Below, in pieces: positions 45,109 to 52,045 of a DNA stretch of 64,000 nt. This DNA is from an uncultured Bacteroidia bacterium (GTDB lineage Bacteria; Bacteroidota; Bacteroidia; Bacteroidales; UBA932), in contig CADAAA010000003.1 in assembly GCA_902785785.1 (NCBI GenBank), positions 1 to 64,000 of the forward strand. The letters are read 5' to 3'. Within the stretch, counting starts at the first letter, position 1. Each line of letters begins with the position of its first letter. Under the pieces are notes generated by a model. The model saw nothing but the letters and a program-made list of their open reading frames with translations, did not search any database and was not told where the DNA came from. The translations under genes and the position numbers were made by a program.

Positions 45109-46164
45109 CTAGGGACTGATGGTCTTGAAGTCCTCGAACAACGAGAAAACCCTTTTTACATAGGATATTGTCTCCGTGCCCTGGAAGGTACCGAGCCTGA
45201 TGACGCTGTCTACCTGGATGGTGGTCTCGTCACGCATCTCAGGTATGACTGAGACTATGCCGTCCCATGTCCCGGAATCCGCCCCGACGGATTCAGCATA
45301 TCGGATGCAGTCCATGATCCGCCCTTCTCCGGCATTGTACGCGGCCAGGGTGAATTTGTAAAGCTCGTTCTTGTCAGCGGCCTTGCCTCGGAACATGTTT
45401 TGGAGCAGGAGCAGGTACTCCGTTCCGGCCTTGATGCTTTCTTCGGGATTGAAAAGGTCCGTGTAACCCATTTTCGCGGCGGTCGACGGCAGCATCTGCA
45501 TCAGGCCCTCAGCGCCCCTTCTGGAACGCAGTTCGATATGGAATTGAGATTCCTGGTAAATAAGGGCGGAGAGCAGCCGCCAGTCCCAATCGAGCCGCTT
45601 TGCTGCGGCTTTCATCAGGCTGTCGTAGGGTGAGACATGACTTACTCCGCGTTTCCATTCCGCCCTTTTGGACGGGCTGTACCTCAGGAGGAAAACGTCC
45701 CGGACGGGCTCATGCTCCTCGGAATCCAGGAATGATCCGAGCCATCCGTCGATCTCCTTCAGGCCGGTTTCACAGTCCTGGCGGACCGCCCAGACCGTAA
45801 GGCTGTCCACTGGACGTGAGATCAGTATGCTGTCCGATTTCGGTATTTCGGAGCAGGGGAGTACAACAATATCGACCTTGCCCCGAAGGAGGGAATCGAT
45901 CCACGATGATCCTCTGCGGGCGTTGACTATCGAGACCAGGCTGTCTCCCATGCTTGCGGAGAAGCGTTGGAGGAGTTCGTAATTGTAGCCTACTGTCAGA
46001 CCGGGAAGATGCCTCTGGGAGTTGTCAAGCTGGATGGCGCAACGCAGGGGCATATTCCGGAAAGAGATGGAGTGGTGCTCTTCGTGCAATCCTGCACGTA
46101 CGGAAGCCCAGATGACGGCTGCGGCCAGCAGGGCGAATACCGCCCGAGTGATACCCGTACGCAT
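45109..46164 (-). CDS. Membrane-bound lytic transglycosylase (MltF-like)
   Basis: A 351-residue exported enzyme that would cleave peptidoglycan with formation of 1,6-anhydro-MurNAc. After an N-terminal signal ('AVFALLAAAVIWASVRAG') a solute-binding-like domain (about 40-165) precedes a GH23 SLT domain with 'LLSALIYQESQFHIELRSRR' (catalytic Glu205), 'GAEGLMQMLPSTAAKMG' and 'FTLAAYNAGEGRI'. This two-domain order is that of MltF. It may share a transcript with the porin gene upstream (1-base gap). A peptidoglycan-sugar kinase gene lies across the porin, which is functionally suggestive. Confidence 0.94.
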   Translation of the reverse strand: MRTGITRAVFALLAAAVIWASVRAGLHEEHHSISFRNMPLRCAIQLDNSQRHLPGLTVGYNYELLQRFSASMGDSLVSIVNARRGSSWIDSLLRGKVDIVVLPCSEIPKSDSILISRPVDSLTVWAVRQDCETGLKEIDGWLGSFLDSEEHEPVRDVFLLRYSPSKRAEWKRGVSHVSPYDSLMKAAAKRLDWDWRLLSALIYQESQFHIELRSRRGAEGLMQMLPSTAAKMGYTDLFNPEESIKAGTEYLLLLQNMFRGKAADKNELYKFTLAAYNAGEGRIMDCIRYAESVGADSGTWDGIVSVIPEMRDETTIQVDSVIRLGTFQGTETISYVKRVFSLFEDFKTISP

Positions 46165-46165
46165 G

Positions 46166-48895
46166 TCAGTTGCCCCTGGACTGTCTTCTGCCTCCGTCCT
46201 CGGAATTTGCCGGCAAATCCTTGCCGGGCTGGGTATAGAACGGCCAGAATACGCCTAGCTTGACCATGCGCTGTGTCACGATGTAACGGTCTGCGGAGAA
46301 GTAGTCGTTCTTTTTCATCGGCCAGCCCTGTCCGGCATTCTCGAGCTTGACAAAGATGGTCGCACGTTTCCACTGCATGTTGACGAATGCGTCGAAATAC
46401 GGACCGTTAGTGTACTTGTTCTCGGTTTGGTTGTGGAATACTCCGAGTGCAGGATTCCATGCCGGAGAGTTCCATGCGGTGTTGTACAGACCATTGGCAC
46501 CGATCTGCATGAGCATGACTCCTCCGGAGACTTTGAACTGCAGGTAATACTTGAGATTGACGGCAAGTCTGGGCAGCGGAACCACTTCAGGGTTGGATGT
46601 GAGTTGGAACAGCACCCTGTTGTCCAGGTGCAGGACGCCCAGCACGAACTCCTTGTGGAGGTCTGCGGAAAGGATGCTCATCGGAGTGGCATTCTGCCTG
46701 ATCACTCCTAGGGTGTCATAATAGATGTTGTTGGCGAGCAGGGCGTAGCCTGCCCCGGCATCGAGTTTCCAACGGGGTATCGACAGCCTTCCCTGCACCC
46801 GCGTCACCGACTGCTTGGAGAAATCGTTGTCCCATTTGAAATGGTTGGAGTAGACATGCTCGTGGTAGTATTCCGGCTCGTCCAGGCTGGTGTCGAAATG
46901 CAGGTCGACGGTCAGGGGACTCTTCCTCGCCCTGCGGAAGGGATAGATGCTGAATCCGAGGTTTGCGTCAATGCTCATGTCGTTGATCTCGTCCCCCAGG
47001 AACACATACTCGCCCTTGGCATCCCAATGTATGTAGTTGCGCAGGCTTCCTTCGACTCCGGCATAGAGGTAAGCCGAGTTCCATACGACATTGTTGCGTT
47101 TCCTGGTAAATGTCGGATCGAATGAGTAGTACGAGAGCAAACGGTCTCCGACTCCGACATTGAGCTTGGAGACTATGGCATCTTCAGCCCAAGGCTGCAG
47201 CCTCAGGAATACACGGTTCTCCAGACGCGCCACCCGCATGGAATCCGCAGAGGCGGAGGGATGGATGTAATGTTGATTGTGGTAGAACGCGTCCTCAATG
47301 GGATTGGAAGGACTCACTGCATCCTTGTAGAGGCGACGATATGAGGAGTATTCGGTGCTGTGTCCGATAAAGGCAGTCGTGATGTTTGAATCGCCCAGCG
47401 TGTCCGCCGCCGCCCTTATCTCCCGCTTTTCGGCGAGATACCCTTCAAGGGCTTCCATCGACAGGGAGTCTCCTGCGGCGGCGATGCTGTCCCGGTATGC
47501 AGCCTCAAGTGCCTTGTCTGCCTTGCGGTCCTTCATCCTGTTTATGAAGCTGAAGGGTATCCTGTACTGCTGGTCAAGGAACAGGGTGTTTTTCTTGACC
47601 TTGCTGGAGGCGCTGTTGAGGATGACGTCCAGTTCCCTGGCGTTCACGGTCGTGTCCCTGATGCCTCCCAGATCGACTATACCGCCGTTTTCGGTACGGC
47701 TGACGCCGTTGAATAGGTATCCGGCGTGGGCCATGTAACGACGGCCAAGATAGTTGACCGTTACCTGGGTATTCTTGTTGGTGGTGGTCTCGTTGTTGAG
47801 TATGCCTCCGCCTCCGAAGCGGTCGTAGACCAGGGTGAAGTTGAACTCAGGCGTAATGTTCTGCGTGGTCAGCAGGTGCAGGTTGTCCGACTCCCTGTCC
47901 TGGCCGGCCAGGAGCGTCCCGAAATAGCTGAGTTCCGTATACGGGGTCTTGGTATTGTACATGACAACGTCGGAAGGGGTGTGGCTCCAGCTCTCCAGGG
48001 CCTCGTAGAAAGACACCTTGTCTTTCGACTTGCGGTTGAACCAGTTGTAATACTGTACCGGCGATCCCGCCACGCCTAGCCATGTGGCGTTGACATCCTT
48101 CCTCAGGAAAGGATAATCGTGGAAACGGTAGTTGAAATCCGAGTCGACAGGAGCGATGGCAAGTTTGTGGAACTCCTGCTCGTGCGTCCACTTCAGCAGT
48201 CGCTTGTATTGCAGTGAATCGGCAAAGGCAAAGGTGTTCAGGATGCGGGGAGTACTGGTGAGGATACTGTCCCTGACCACCTTGAGACTGTCCTTGCGTA
48301 CCTTGTCGCGGTTCATCTTGGCAATCTTCCGCTGGGTGAGTTCCTCCATGCGGAGCTTCTTCCTTTCCTGCCTGGAAAGCCCGGCGTACCAGCGCTCGTA
48401 TTCGAGCTTCTCGCGCAGCAGGGAGTCTGACAGGTAAAGCGAGTCAAGTACCGGCCAGTCGAGCGAATCACCGGCCGCTATGAGCGAGTCGCGTACAAAA
48501 TCGTATGTGGGACGGTCGCGCAGTGCGACATAGTACTTGTAGCGGAAAGGATCGGTGAGACGGAGCGAATCCGGGACTGGGATGGTATCCCTCGCGGTGA
48601 GCTTGGGAATGGTGTCCAGAACGGCAAGGGTATCGGCAGTCCCGAGACTGTCAATGTCTGTGAAGAGAGAGTCTTCCAGGGGATTGGCATCCATACGGAA
48701 ATCCTCCTCGGTCCATCCGCGCTTGTACCCGTCGGGTGGATAGATGACGGTGTCGGGCCGCTCCGATATCACTGGGACGGATATGCCGGACAGGCGCATG
48801 TCTGCATTCACACCGGGATCCGAAGCGACGGTGTGGACGGCTGCGATGGCGGTCACGGCGACCGGGAGCCAAAATCTGGAAACCAAACTCTTCAT
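46166..48895 (-). CDS. Bacteroidetes putative porin
   Basis: A 909-residue protein with signal peptide ('FWLPVAVTAIAAVHTVAS') and a long outer membrane beta-barrel. 'FYEALESWSHTPSDVVMYNT', 'LSYFGTLLAGQDRESDNLHLLTTQNI' (in part) and the C-terminal 'KLGVFWPFYTQPG' match the 'putative porin' family of this phylum. An N-terminal extension of about 200 residues is rich in charged, R/K/D/E-heavy helices ('RQERKKLRMEELTQRKIAKM') that would be periplasmic. Substrate unknown. TAACTTTG on the minus strand just upstream (48911-48918) is a likely -7 box. Confidence 0.87.
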   Translation of the reverse strand: MKSLVSRFWLPVAVTAIAAVHTVASDPGVNADMRLSGISVPVISERPDTVIYPPDGYKRGWTEEDFRMDANPLEDSLFTDIDSLGTADTLAVLDTIPKLTARDTIPVPDSLRLTDPFRYKYYVALRDRPTYDFVRDSLIAAGDSLDWPVLDSLYLSDSLLREKLEYERWYAGLSRQERKKLRMEELTQRKIAKMNRDKVRKDSLKVVRDSILTSTPRILNTFAFADSLQYKRLLKWTHEQEFHKLAIAPVDSDFNYRFHDYPFLRKDVNATWLGVAGSPVQYYNWFNRKSKDKVSFYEALESWSHTPSDVVMYNTKTPYTELSYFGTLLAGQDRESDNLHLLTTQNITPEFNFTLVYDRFGGGGILNNETTTNKNTQVTVNYLGRRYMAHAGYLFNGVSRTENGGIVDLGGIRDTTVNARELDVILNSASSKVKKNTLFLDQQYRIPFSFINRMKDRKADKALEAAYRDSIAAAGDSLSMEALEGYLAEKREIRAAADTLGDSNITTAFIGHSTEYSSYRRLYKDAVSPSNPIEDAFYHNQHYIHPSASADSMRVARLENRVFLRLQPWAEDAIVSKLNVGVGDRLLSYYSFDPTFTRKRNNVVWNSAYLYAGVEGSLRNYIHWDAKGEYVFLGDEINDMSIDANLGFSIYPFRRARKSPLTVDLHFDTSLDEPEYYHEHVYSNHFKWDNDFSKQSVTRVQGRLSIPRWKLDAGAGYALLANNIYYDTLGVIRQNATPMSILSADLHKEFVLGVLHLDNRVLFQLTSNPEVVPLPRLAVNLKYYLQFKVSGGVMLMQIGANGLYNTAWNSPAWNPALGVFHNQTENKYTNGPYFDAFVNMQWKRATIFVKLENAGQGWPMKKNDYFSADRYIVTQRMVKLGVFWPFYTQPGKDLPANSEDGGRRQSRGN

Positions 48896-48976
48896 ATATA
48901 CAATTCACAAAGTTAAGCACTTTTTGCGAGATTACTCGGAATAAATTCGTAAATTCGTATCCTCAAAGCGTTTGGT

Positions 48977-50392
48977 ATGGACCGTCTGACAGCGTTATTC
49001 CGCTCATATACAGGAAGGGATGCAGAAAAATGCGTGGCCTTGTCACCGTCCGGCAGCCGGAGGAGGTATTTCCGGCTCTCTGCCGGTGACGTTTCGCTCA
49101 TAGGCGTCCATGGGACTGACCTGGACGAGAACCGGGCATTCATCGCACTTTCCGGCCATTTCCGGTCAAAGGGCTTGCGCGTACCTGAGGTGCTGGCCGT
49201 CAGTGACGACGGAATGTATTACCTGCAGCAGGATCTTGGGGACGTCCTTCTCTATGATACCCTTGCAGATGCGCGCAGGACCGGCGACTACGGCCCTGCC
49301 GAACGCGCCCTGCTGCTGCGCGCGGTCTCCGAACTGCCGGCGATCCAGGTTGAAGGCGCCCGGGGTCTTGACTTCTCCGTCTGCTATCCTTCCGATGCGT
49401 TCAACGCCAGGATGGTCGACTTCGACCTCAATTATTTCAAGTACTGCTTCCTGAAGCCCACTTCGGTGGAGTTCAACGAGGAGATGCTACAGGACGACTT
49501 CGAACGTCTGAAGGAAGATCTGCTGCAGGATGTGCCCGATGCATTCATGTACAGGGATTTCCAGGCCAGGAACATCATGCTCCATGACGGAGAACTCTGG
49601 TACATAGATTTCCAGGGAGGACGACGCGGCCCGCTTGAATACGACCTCGCGTCGTTCGTCTGGCAGGCACGCGCACGGTATCCGGAGGATCTCAGGCGCG
49701 CGCTGGTGGACACCTACATGGATGCCCTTGGTAAATATATGTCCGTTGACAAGGAAGCGTTCCGGGAGAGGCTCCGCACTTTCGTGCTGTTCCGCACGCT
49801 CCAGGTCCTGGGCGCATACGGTTTCCGCGGTCGCATCGAGAAACGTTCGCACTTTCTCGAAAGCATCCCCTATGCGCTGGAGAATCTCAGGGAGCTGGTT
49901 TCCACTCCTTTCGAGCGCTACCCCTATCTATCTGCTATCCTGGAAAAACTTGTACGGACCGGCCCCGGGCTGCCTCAGCAGCCGGACGGATTGCTGCATG
50001 TCCATATCTACAGCTTTTCTTACAAGAAAGGCATCCCCGAAGACCTGTCAGGCAACGGCGGAGGCTATGTCTTCGACTGCCGTTCCGTTCACAATCCAGG
50101 CAAATACGAGCGTTTCCGTACCATGACCGGCCTCGACAGGGAGGTGCAGGATTTCCTGGAGGAGGACGGCGAGATCATCACTTTCCTGGGACACGTATTC
50201 CCGCTCGTCGACGCTCATGTGGAGCGTTTCGTCAGCCGGGGATTCACGCATCTGCAGGTGTCTTTCGGCTGCACCGGCGGCCAGCACCGCTCGGCGTACA
50301 GCGCCCAGAAGCTCGCGGAGCATCTGGCAGGCCGCCCGGGAGTCAGGGTGCATCTGCACCATCGTGAACTCGGAATAGAACGGACGCTATGA
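48977..50392 (+). CDS. AmgK-like amino-sugar kinase fused to RapZ C-terminal domain
   Basis: A 471-residue fusion. Residues 1-330 are an aminoglycoside-phosphotransferase-like kinase with catalytic 'YRDFQARNIML' (Asp194, Asn199) and metal-binding 'YIDFQGGRRGPLEYDLASF' (Asp211), the pattern of AmgK, which phosphorylates MurNAc/GlcNAc at C1. Residues 338-465 match the RapZ C-terminal domain: 'YVFDCRSVHNPGKYERFRTM', 'TGLDREVQDFLE' and 'SFGCTGGQHRSAYSAQKLAE'. The RapZ N-terminal P-loop ATPase domain is absent. In E. coli the RapZ C domain binds glucosamine-6-phosphate and small RNAs. The next gene, overlapping by ATGA, is MurU-like, supporting a peptidoglycan-sugar recycling role. Sensing by the RapZ part is inference. 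Confidence 0.86.
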   Translation: MDRLTALFRSYTGRDAEKCVALSPSGSRRRYFRLSAGDVSLIGVHGTDLDENRAFIALSGHFRSKGLRVPEVLAVSDDGMYYLQQDLGDVLLYDTLADARRTGDYGPAERALLLRAVSELPAIQVEGARGLDFSVCYPSDAFNARMVDFDLNYFKYCFLKPTSVEFNEEMLQDDFERLKEDLLQDVPDAFMYRDFQARNIMLHDGELWYIDFQGGRRGPLEYDLASFVWQARARYPEDLRRALVDTYMDALGKYMSVDKEAFRERLRTFVLFRTLQVLGAYGFRGRIEKRSHFLESIPYALENLRELVSTPFERYPYLSAILEKLVRTGPGLPQQPDGLLHVHIYSFSYKKGIPEDLSGNGGGYVFDCRSVHNPGKYERFRTMTGLDREVQDFLEEDGEIITFLGHVFPLVDAHVERFVSRGFTHLQVSFGCTGGQHRSAYSAQKLAEHLAGRPGVRVHLHHRELGIERTL

Positions 50393-51171
50393 AAGCCATG
50401 ATATTCGCGGCCGGCCTTGGAACCCGCCTGAAACCCATTACCGACACTCTCCCAAAAGCACTTGTGCCTGTCTGTGGCGAGCCTCTCCTCAAGCATATCG
50501 TAGACCGTCTGAAAGATGCAGGTATAGACGATATTGTCATCAATGTCCATCATTTCGCGGACAAGATCGTGGCTTATATCGCAGAACAGGACGGTTTCGG
50601 TATAAAGGTCGCCGTTTCCGACGAGTCGGACCGCCTGCTGGAGACCGGCGGGGGTATCCTCCATGCGCGTGACCTTCTCCTGCGTGACGAACCGGCTGAC
50701 GGCCGTTTCCTCGTCCACAACGTGGACATCCTGTCCGACCTGGACACACGCGCCTTCATGGACGCATGGCGTCCCGGCGCGCTGGCGTCACTGCTTGTCA
50801 GCCCCCGCAAGACGCAGCGCTACCTGCTCTTCGACGATGACATGCGCCTTGTCGGCTGGACCAACCTTGCCACAGGCGAAGTGCGTTCCCCGTGGCCGGA
50901 TCTCGATCCGGCATCGTGCCGCATGCTCGCATTCTCCGGCATCCATCAGATTTCGAATACTGTATTCGGCGTGATGGAGTCCGAAGGGATGGGGGAGCGT
51001 TTCCCGATAATGGATTTCTACCTGAAGGTATGCGACCGGTATCCCATATACGGCGTCGAGCCTGCGTCCCTCGAATTGATCGACGTCGGCAAGCTCGACA
51101 CCCTGGCGGTAGCGGAAGATTTTATTCTGAGACGATCTCTGCGCAGCTGCCCTGCGGGTCGAGAGGCTTGA
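50389..51171 (+). CDS. MurU-like sugar-1-phosphate nucleotidyltransferase
   Basis: A 260-residue nucleotidyltransferase: 'MIFAAGLGTRLKPITDTLPKA' is the G-x-G-x-x-R nucleotide loop with the conserved Lys, 'ETGGGILHARDLLL' and 'FLVHNVDILSDLD' (metal Asp) follow. This is the short single-domain type to which MurU (UTP:MurNAc-1-phosphate uridylyltransferase) belongs. Translationally coupled (ATGA) to the AmgK-like kinase, which would supply MurNAc- or GlcNAc-1-phosphate. Its last 50 bases overlap the convergent CPBP protease gene. Confidence 0.87.
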   Translation: MKAMIFAAGLGTRLKPITDTLPKALVPVCGEPLLKHIVDRLKDAGIDDIVINVHHFADKIVAYIAEQDGFGIKVAVSDESDRLLETGGGILHARDLLLRDEPADGRFLVHNVDILSDLDTRAFMDAWRPGALASLLVSPRKTQRYLLFDDDMRLVGWTNLATGEVRSPWPDLDPASCRMLAFSGIHQISNTVFGVMESEGMGERFPIMDFYLKVCDRYPIYGVEPASLELIDVGKLDTLAVAEDFILRRSLRSCPAGREA

Positions 51172-52045
51172 TCGTCTGGAACTTCTTTACGAAATAGACT
51201 ATGAAGGCGACGCAGAATGCGAGTATCGCCCAATAAAGGGGACCCGGCAGGACTTCCTTCATGTTATCAATCTCCTTGAGCGAATCGATATTGCTCAATA
51301 CCAACGCAAATGTGTTGTTGGCGAAGTGCATGAGCATCGTCAGCCAGATCGATCCGGTCCTGTAATACACAAAACCGAATACCAGTCCCATTGCGAATGC
51401 GGCGATGCCCTGCCAGGAGTTGAAATGTATCAGTGCGAAGAAGGCGGCGGAGATGACGATGGCCCATACGGGCTTCAATCCTCTGACGGTCTCTCCTGCC
51501 TTGTTCTTGTGTTCATAATTCAGCAGGCCGCGCAGGACTGTACCGCGGCAGAGCCATTCTTCGAAGAATGGGGCGAAGATGCTGACACACAGGAAGTTGA
51601 TGAATATGTTCCCTTGGGTTATGCTGGAAAGCATAGCCTCGAGCCATTCCGGCATGGGAGGCAGCAACGAGATGACGGAGTCGGATAAGAAGGAAACGGC
51701 CAGGGTGACGATTACCACCAGCACGGCGCATAATGCAAGTCCGAGAGGGGAGTAGTGCTTGTTGGACAGCTTGTATCCCTTTCCGAAGAAGGAATTGCCC
51801 CGGCTCTTGTACGAAGCGTATATCATCGGCGGGATGAACATGATCGGATAGGATATGAGCATCGCATACGTCTGCGCATCGGGATTGTCCTTCAGGAACA
51901 GTACGAAGGGGGCCGAGATAAAGCCTCCCAGAAGGGCGCCGGCAAGAAGGAGGCAGAGCAAGATGACCATTCCCCCGGGACCGGGGATGTAATAGTCGTA
52001 GTTTGAGAAGAACTCGTAGTTCTTTTGGATCTTTCTATGTGCCAT
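51122..52045 (-). CDS. CPBP family intramembrane metalloprotease
   Basis: A 307-residue polytopic membrane protein with about eight helices. The CPBP/Abi signature is intact: 'FFEEWLCRGTVL' (EExxxR), 'AAFFALIHFNSW' (FxxxH) and 'LTMLMHFANNTFAL' (HxxxN). Related to CAAX prenyl endopeptidase Rce1; substrates in Bacteroidetes are unknown. It is the last gene of tmk-BT_3928-CPBP on the minus strand (4 bases after the BT_3928 stop) and its 3' end overlaps the MurU-like gene by 50 bases tail to tail. Confidence 0.92.
   Translation of the reverse strand: MAHRKIQKNYEFFSNYDYYIPGPGGMVILLCLLLAGALLGGFISAPFVLFLKDNPDAQTYAMLISYPIMFIPPMIYASYKSRGNSFFGKGYKLSNKHYSPLGLALCAVLVVIVTLAVSFLSDSVISLLPPMPEWLEAMLSSITQGNIFINFLCVSIFAPFFEEWLCRGTVLRGLLNYEHKNKAGETVRGLKPVWAIVISAAFFALIHFNSWQGIAAFAMGLVFGFVYYRTGSIWLTMLMHFANNTFALVLSNIDSLKEIDNMKEVLPGPLYWAILAFCVAFIVYFVKKFQTIKPLDPQGSCAEIVSE

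Follow-up and report, generated by a model that had tools for sequence, protein, structure and literature searches.

What does the C-terminal domain of RapZ do when it is joined to an amino-sugar kinase? The question is raised by a stretch of 64,000 nucleotides from an uncultured Bacteroidia bacterium (Bacteroidales, UBA932; contig CADAAA010000003.1, positions 1 to 64,000), hereafter the window, in which an AmgK-like kinase fused to the RapZ C-terminal domain (RapZ_C) is followed by a gene for a MurU-like nucleotidyltransferase. RapZ has been studied so far as a sensor of glucosamine-6-phosphate (GlcN6P) and as an RNA adaptor. In Bacteroidota, RapZ_C occurs without the RNA-binding tail and the ATPase and is joined to a salvage kinase, and the same pathway needs a phosphatase in Pseudomonas. 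The operon and its spread across the phylum are well supported, and we hold with good confidence that the kinase and MurU-like pair serves the salvage of N-acetylmuramic acid (MurNAc). Within this MurNAc salvage operon we cautiously favour, at somewhat less than even confidence, a role of RapZ_C as a cysteine-type sugar-6-phosphate phosphatase. The features concerned are the following:

48977 to 50392, forward strand: kinase–RapZ_C fusion gene, an open frame of 471 amino acids (aa)
48977 to 49909, forward strand: AmgK-like kinase domain (APH fold), residues 1-311, with catalytic D194, N199 and D211 (Pfam APH; NF045759; PDB 3csv)
49910 to 49993, forward strand: variable linker, residues about 312-339 (311-339: 22% mean pairwise identity, zero invariant positions)
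49997 to 50371, forward strand: RapZ C-terminal domain, residues 341-465 (Pfam PF22740, 114.1 bits)
50054 to 50065, forward strand: NGGG, residues 360-363, within a five-residue Gly-rich insertion
50099 to 50101, forward strand: Gly375, aligned with E. coli RapZ His190
50267 to 50293, forward strand: GCTGGQHRS, residues 431-439, the phosphate-binding loop Cys432-X5-Arg438
50389 to 51171, forward strand: MurU-like nucleotidyltransferase gene, 260 aa, its start overlapping the fusion stop via ATGA

An earlier sequence-only reading of this DNA had described an AmgK-like kinase fused to RapZ_C from the residues D194, N199 and D211 and the loop at 431-439, and Pfam bears this out, with APH matched over residues 49-252 (39.8 bits against a cut-off of 23.2) and RapZ_C well above its cut-off of 27 bits. 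The three catalytic residues are invariant in the alignment of 37 fusions, in agreement with the APH-fold catalytic residues of AmgK. The NCBIfam AmgK models remain below their cut-offs on the kinase (60.7 against 550 bits and 30.2 against 500 bits), with the NF045759 profile aligned over positions 30-308 of 324 in the kinase domain. For the protein encoded by the ATGA-coupled gene starting at 50389, which had been called MurU-like, the top NCBIfam models are indeed those of MurU (119.9 and 109.3 bits, below the cut-offs of 250 and 370), although they cover only its first half. When this protein was searched against sequences of solved structures, the best match was 4y7t, which we take to be MurU of Pseudomonas putida, with a second stretch in the C-terminal part that reaches only 19 bits; 8hhd, labelled MurU, ranked third over the stretch 1-120, with other sugar-nucleotide enzymes close behind. 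Because the scores lie below the curated cut-offs, "AmgK-like" and "MurU-like" are the proper terms.

How widespread this arrangement is was assessed in a sample of 395 Bacteroidota genomes searched with the PF22740 profile. RapZ_C was found in 49 of them, including that of the window (which holds a single match), and the kinase is present in all 49. The two are fused in 37 of the survey loci, eight loci have kinase, RapZ_C and MurU as three neighbouring genes, and in the remaining four RapZ_C has no kinase nearby, the kinase being encoded more than 500 kilobases (kb) away (G271, G331) or on other contigs (G306, G180). Within the fetched loci, 39 of the 49 include a MurU-like gene (30/37 fused, 8/8 split and 1/4 distant). 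A second set comprised the best 80 of at least 591 confirmed stretches in named genomes, mostly Bacteroidales by their titles (Parabacteroides, Phocaeicola, Bacteroides and Tannerella among them); together with the window it makes 81 loci, all of which carry a MurU-like gene somewhere in the fetched stretch. The co-occurrence with MurU-like genes on which the sequence-only reading had staked its proposal is thus found in both sets. In 68 of the 81 loci, MurU shares the strand and lies within -80 to 600 bases. In the other 13, seven MurU frames were called with a longer overlap, MurU is 1.1 kb downstream in L146, farther or on the opposite strand in L092, L117, L135 and L153, and in one frame with the fusion in L157. 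Neighbour clustering over both sets placed MurU in 106 loci and the next family in 18. The arrangement is not due to chance, because kinase, RapZ_C and MurU follow each other in this order in loci across the phylum. In a tree of 52 kinase domains (midpoint root, bootstrap unsettled, some long branches), the split family f6 is nested in the fused family f5, and L049 stands beside the fused L048; the simplest account is that fused genes were split more than once. Stand-alone versions of RapZ_C, such as those of L072 and L049, have 133-165 aa. The single frame of L157 (L157:8001-10283; JAFYVX010000232.1, a Bacteroidaceae metagenome-assembled genome) encodes 760 aa with kinase, RapZ_C and MurU, and might be a real triple fusion or an assembly indel in this one genome.

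Evidence on the pathway comes from the distribution of MurQ, the enzyme of the alternative route; an E. coli K-12 murQ mutant has been reported to accumulate MurNAc-6-phosphate (PMC5371407). A first panel of 80 genomes was formed by the 49 with RapZ_C and 31 without it, namely G001-G039 less those that were positive. The kinase profile matched all 49 RapZ_C genomes at 1e-73 or better, G009 strongly and seven others weakly, all seven of family f19. With a threshold of more than 250 bits, which admits a few matches below the curated cut-off of 302, MurQ was found in 23/23 kinase-less genomes, in 20/49 RapZ_C genomes and in 0/8 genomes with the kinase only (Fisher p 2e-8, uncorrected for kinship). 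In a second set of 80 genomes new to the MurQ search (E 1e-40 or better), it was present in 69/70 genomes without a kinase match and in 0/10 f19 genomes with one; the one kinase-less genome in which it was missed, G056, also belongs to f19. Over both sets, MurQ is therefore found in 92/93 genomes without the kinase versus 20/67 with it. The tendency of MurQ to be missing where the kinase is present ties the kinase to MurNAc salvage, and such an inverse relation has been described for AmgK–MurU in proteobacteria (PMC5371407).

The neighbourhood of the f19 kinases points in the same direction. In six of the seven f19 panel genomes the kinase–MurU pair lies beside NamZ, a family named exo-beta-N-acetylmuramidase, and in the seventh the kinase is at a contig end; NamZ is found in 76/80 panel genomes, so its presence alone does not discriminate. 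These clusters (L180, L181, L183, L184, L185 and L186, with MurU uncalled in L186) combine a divergent AmgK-like kinase, a MurU-like gene and NamZ, and look like compact MurNAc salvage units in genomes without matches to RapZ_C, MurQ or AnmK. In Tannerella forsythia, which is devoid of MurA and MurB, a murK mutant accumulates MurNAc and UDP-MurNAc-pentapeptide (UDP, uridine diphosphate; PMC5790795), and an AmgK/MurU route has been assumed by the authors (PMC5790795, PMC7670621). Three loci titled Tannerella sp. (L107, L118, L119) carry the fusion and MurU. The kinase of the window is accordingly predicted to transfer phosphate to C1 of MurNAc, as AmgK does, and the MurU-like protein would convert MurNAc-1-phosphate (MurNAc-1P) to UDP-MurNAc, skipping MurA and MurB. 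The peptidoglycan recycling module of the sequence-only reading thus survives as MurNAc salvage. Its idea that the pair bypasses GlmS, GlmM and GlmU was too wide: the genome of the window keeps both MurA (423.7 bits) and a protein of 614 aa that combines SIS and glutamine-amidotransferase domains and is read as GlmS, and the MurNAc route bypasses MurA/MurB. Alternatively, the kinase might have another substrate (N-acetylglucosamine (GlcNAc), glucosamine or a sugar of the capsule), with a different UDP-sugar as the product of the MurU-like enzyme. The scores of both proteins, which fall far short of the cut-offs for AmgK and MurU, and the half-length MurU matches would suit that explanation, which the inverse occurrence of MurQ, the NamZ neighbours in f19 and the second, weak match to 4y7t nevertheless make rather improbable.

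The RapZ_C domain itself was compared over 129 Bacteroidota domains, 49 from the profile survey and 80 from the near relatives; the latter had been retrieved by two patterns, the loop being part of one, and the 49 are the independent part. C432, T433, G434, G435, H437, R438 and S439 are identical in all 129 domains, as are D367, R369, H462, G361-363 and G375, with D387 found in 128 and Q436 in 121. The loop thus has the form Cys-x2-Gly-x2-Arg-Ser, as in cysteine phosphatases, in 129/129. When 12 RapZ_C sequences of other phyla (plasmid and phage records) were aligned with six Bacteroidota domains, all 12 shared, within the loop, the Cys, the two Gly that come after it and the His, Arg and Ser, and outside it the conserved Asp, Arg and His. 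Of the E. coli pocket residues H190, T248, G249, H252 and R253 plus C247, five of six are kept and H190 is lost, its position being occupied by Gly in all 129 Bacteroidota domains and by His, Tyr or Phe in 12/12 outgroup sequences, none of which has the five-residue Gly-rich insertion. Over the 37 fusions, mean pairwise identity is 56% in RapZ_C versus 46% in the kinase.

A function in RNA control, in which RapZ_C would bind RNA and, as in E. coli, regulate glmS or the mRNAs of salvage genes, had been considered in the sequence-only reading, and homology to an RNA-binding domain speaks for it. The basic RNA-binding C-terminal tail is, however, absent from the aligned Bacteroidota domains, and Gln takes the place of E. 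coli K251 in 121/129. The RapZ N-terminal (P-loop ATPase) domain, already reported as missing, gave zero Pfam matches in the fusion protein, and RapZ-like_N was found in 0/80 panel genomes. According to one report, the RNA-binding part is confined to Enterobacteriaceae (PMC7073468). The absent tail and the absent N-domain led to the rejection of RNA control, which is very improbable here.

A further clue is the co-occurrence of RapZ_C with kinases presumed to act on C6 of the sugar. RapZ_C is present in all 31 panel genomes that have both the kinase and AnmK; for G216, one of the 31, the match is partial and lies at the edge of a contig. Among the 31 are 15 genomes, from six families, that have AnmK without MurQ. 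The 18 RapZ_C genomes without AnmK possess either a MurK-like protein (G000, G230, G347, G351 and G394; E 2.5e-51 or better) or, in 13 cases, a BcrAD_BadFG protein of 296-331 aa (85-144 bits). In the eight kinase genomes without RapZ_C, searches for AnmK, MurK-like proteins and MurQ gave zero matches. This co-occurrence with C6 kinases in general is suggestive, and matches either a phosphatase for MurNAc-6-phosphate (MurNAc-6P) or a sensor of a 6-phosphate sugar. In the genome of the window, a direct MurK query found a MurK-like protein at C2:195194-196021 (36% identity over 2-278); AnmK and MurQ gave no match there (completeness 96%). For MurNAc-6P made by this MurK-like protein, a phosphatase would be the sole known outlet. 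The same genome encodes a transporter read as AmpG-like (Pfam MFS) that adjoins NamZ and a DUF4922-SpoIID protein (L209:3203-9576). In three genomes (G005, G271, G306) AnmK is about 10-16 kb from RapZ_C; the intervening frames look unrelated, and this proximity was left unused.

Taken together, these data might be explained if RapZ_C were a second active site and more than a sensor alone. Most likely, Cys432 in the Cys-X5-Arg phosphate loop would strip the 6-phosphate from an amino-sugar phosphate. The substrate would most probably be MurNAc-6P from AnmK- or MurK-type kinases, with the resulting MurNAc passed on to the kinase, and RapZ_C would occupy the place that the unrelated HAD phosphatase MupP has in the Pseudomonas route. 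Both activities, the substrate and the nucleophile are what we infer from the anatomy, linkage, conservation and co-occurrence observed here. The loop is retained where RapZ_C is split from the kinase (eight loci) and in the four genomes with a distant kinase; since unfused and distant RapZ_C genes persist, an enzyme is preferred over a built-in sensor. In the published work, Khan and Görke saw homology between the RapZ pocket and the cysteine tyrosine phosphatase loop and suggested GlcN6P hydrolysis (PMC7199280). Moreover, C247S abolishes RapZ activity in E. coli, and the density in a crystal of E. coli RapZ with GlcN6P was judged likely to be a chemically transformed product (PMC9841335). 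The RapZ homologue YvcJ of Bacillus subtilis has been said to have phosphatase activity (PMC7525490).

The close rival, for which our confidence is tentative, is that RapZ_C is a pure ligand sensor (of GlcN6P, MurNAc-6P or MurNAc-1P) that tunes the kinase and so divides MurNAc between breakdown and UDP-MurNAc. Binding of GlcN6P by E. coli RapZ_C alone (PMC7073468), the intact phosphate loop and the covalent fusion in 37/49 loci are in accordance with it, as is the co-occurrence with C6 kinases. On the other hand, His190 is replaced by Gly, with an insertion in the vicinity, and E. coli H190A abolishes function (PMC9841335); the Cys is fully conserved, RapZ_C also survives as a separate gene, even at a great distance from the kinase, and a kinase–MurU pair occurs without RapZ_C in G009. 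Of the GlcN6P sensor proposed in the sequence-only reading, the Cys-X5-Arg loop stands, and the lost His and the Gly-rich insertion mean that self-sensing of GlcN6P is not simply transferable from E. coli. A mere oligomerisation module for the kinase is less probable by far: RapZ_C of E. coli forms dimers, with D182A tested there as a mutant affecting dimerisation (PMC5737377), and the Asp is conserved as Asp367, but the loop residues are invariant too and the domain persists unfused.

Several observations weigh against a phosphatase. The regulatory binding of GlcN6P by E. coli RapZ_C (PMC7073468) is one of them, and the activity of YvcJ may come from its N-terminal ATPase domain. In tyrosine phosphatases His precedes the Cys, whereas the residue before the loop Cys is Gly in RapZ_C, and no general acid for catalysis was identified in the domain. 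In a sequence search of solved structures with RapZ_C, the best match beyond RapZ was the low-molecular-weight tyrosine phosphatase YwlE, at a non-significant E of 0.67. As for the co-occurrence, the kinase without RapZ_C is confined to two lineages (f19 and G009), which gives the contrast little independent weight; G024, with the kinase and without RapZ_C, has a 225-bit BcrAD_BadFG protein and is a doubtful case; and the supposed C6 kinase of 13 genomes is a broad-family match that may act on GlcNAc or be no sugar kinase. The 20 RapZ_C genomes with MurQ have an alternative outlet for MurNAc-6P. A simple dependence between AnmK and RapZ_C was rejected, given that AnmK is present in 31/49 RapZ_C genomes versus 21/31 others.

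A wider proposal would be that RapZ_C is at root a cysteine-dependent amino-sugar-6-phosphate phosphatase, used by Bacteroidota as an analogue of MupP, whether joined to the anomeric kinase or encoded next to it, and that the E. coli sensor and RNA adaptor is a later re-use; this is speculative and, on present evidence, less likely than not. An enzyme role of the RapZ C-terminal domain has been raised in print and left open (PMC7199280), and the phosphatase resemblance of E. coli RapZ has been published there as well; the new element is the genomic context, which points to a candidate substrate. No description of the kinase–RapZ_C fusion was found in an open-access library, subscription papers lying outside the search. 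If RapZ_C were a MurNAc-6P phosphatase, it would fill a gap in cell-wall salvage in common gut and environmental bacteria and hint at the original purpose of the RapZ pocket, and the public label "RNase adapter RapZ" on fusions would be shown to be misleading. That name is given to the fusions of Parabacteroides distasonis (L203:3984-5414) and Bacteroides finegoldii (L204:3981-5411), whose records are labelled plasmids and may be of chromosomal origin.

Two records outside the phylum also deserve mention. Rhizobium phage RHph_TM16 (L200:1498-1827) encodes a stand-alone RapZ_C-like protein of 109 aa with the loop CYGGRHRS, adjoining the gene of a 390-aa protein without Pfam match and then an epimerase gene. 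In the record of Microcystis phage MaAM05 (L201:997-3356), a RapZ-like gene is followed by a "gluconeogenesis factor" gene, as in bacterial rapZ–yvcK pairs, and this sequence is possibly of bacterial origin.

In the window, the two-gene operon stands apart, as both flanking genes are on the other strand: a porin gene (Porin_10, 46166-48895) upstream and a CAAX-protease-like gene (51122-52045) downstream. Farther upstream, also on the opposite strand, lies a lytic-transglycosylase (SLT) gene (45109-46164). Homologues of the SLT gene recur close to the operon in 15 loci and those of Porin_10 in 18, all of them, apart from the window, in the near-relative set. Ahead of the operon there is a weak candidate promoter, whose spacing exceeds the 19-21 bases usual in Bacteroidota:

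48923 to 48957, forward strand: possible promoter, TTTG + TAAATTCG, spacing 23 bases

Three known systems invite comparison. The AmgK–MurU–MupP route of Pseudomonas resembles the operon in its AmgK-like and MurU-like pair and in the inverse occurrence with MurQ; it differs in that the kinase of the window bears RapZ_C and both proteins are below the curated cut-offs. MupP is a HAD protein and RapZ_C is not (Pfam gave no HAD-superfamily match in the fusion), so the comparison concerns their position in the pathway alone. E. coli RapZ and B. subtilis YvcJ share with the fusion a C-terminal domain with a GCTGGxHRS loop, whereas in the fusion the N-terminal ATPase is missing and an APH kinase is attached instead, His190 is changed to Gly, a Gly-rich insertion is present and the basic RNA tail is missing. 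Finally, the MurT–MurK–MurQ–AmpG system of T. forsythia has a counterpart in the MurK-like protein of the window's own genome, and a similar cluster is found in the relative G230, with MurQ, a MurK-like gene, a likely MurT, NamZ and an AmpG-like gene (L208:12426-18568) and a second MurK-like gene at L208:4589-5464. In T. forsythia, MurK and MurQ lead to breakdown, whereas the window's genome has its MurK-like protein without a match to MurQ or AnmK.

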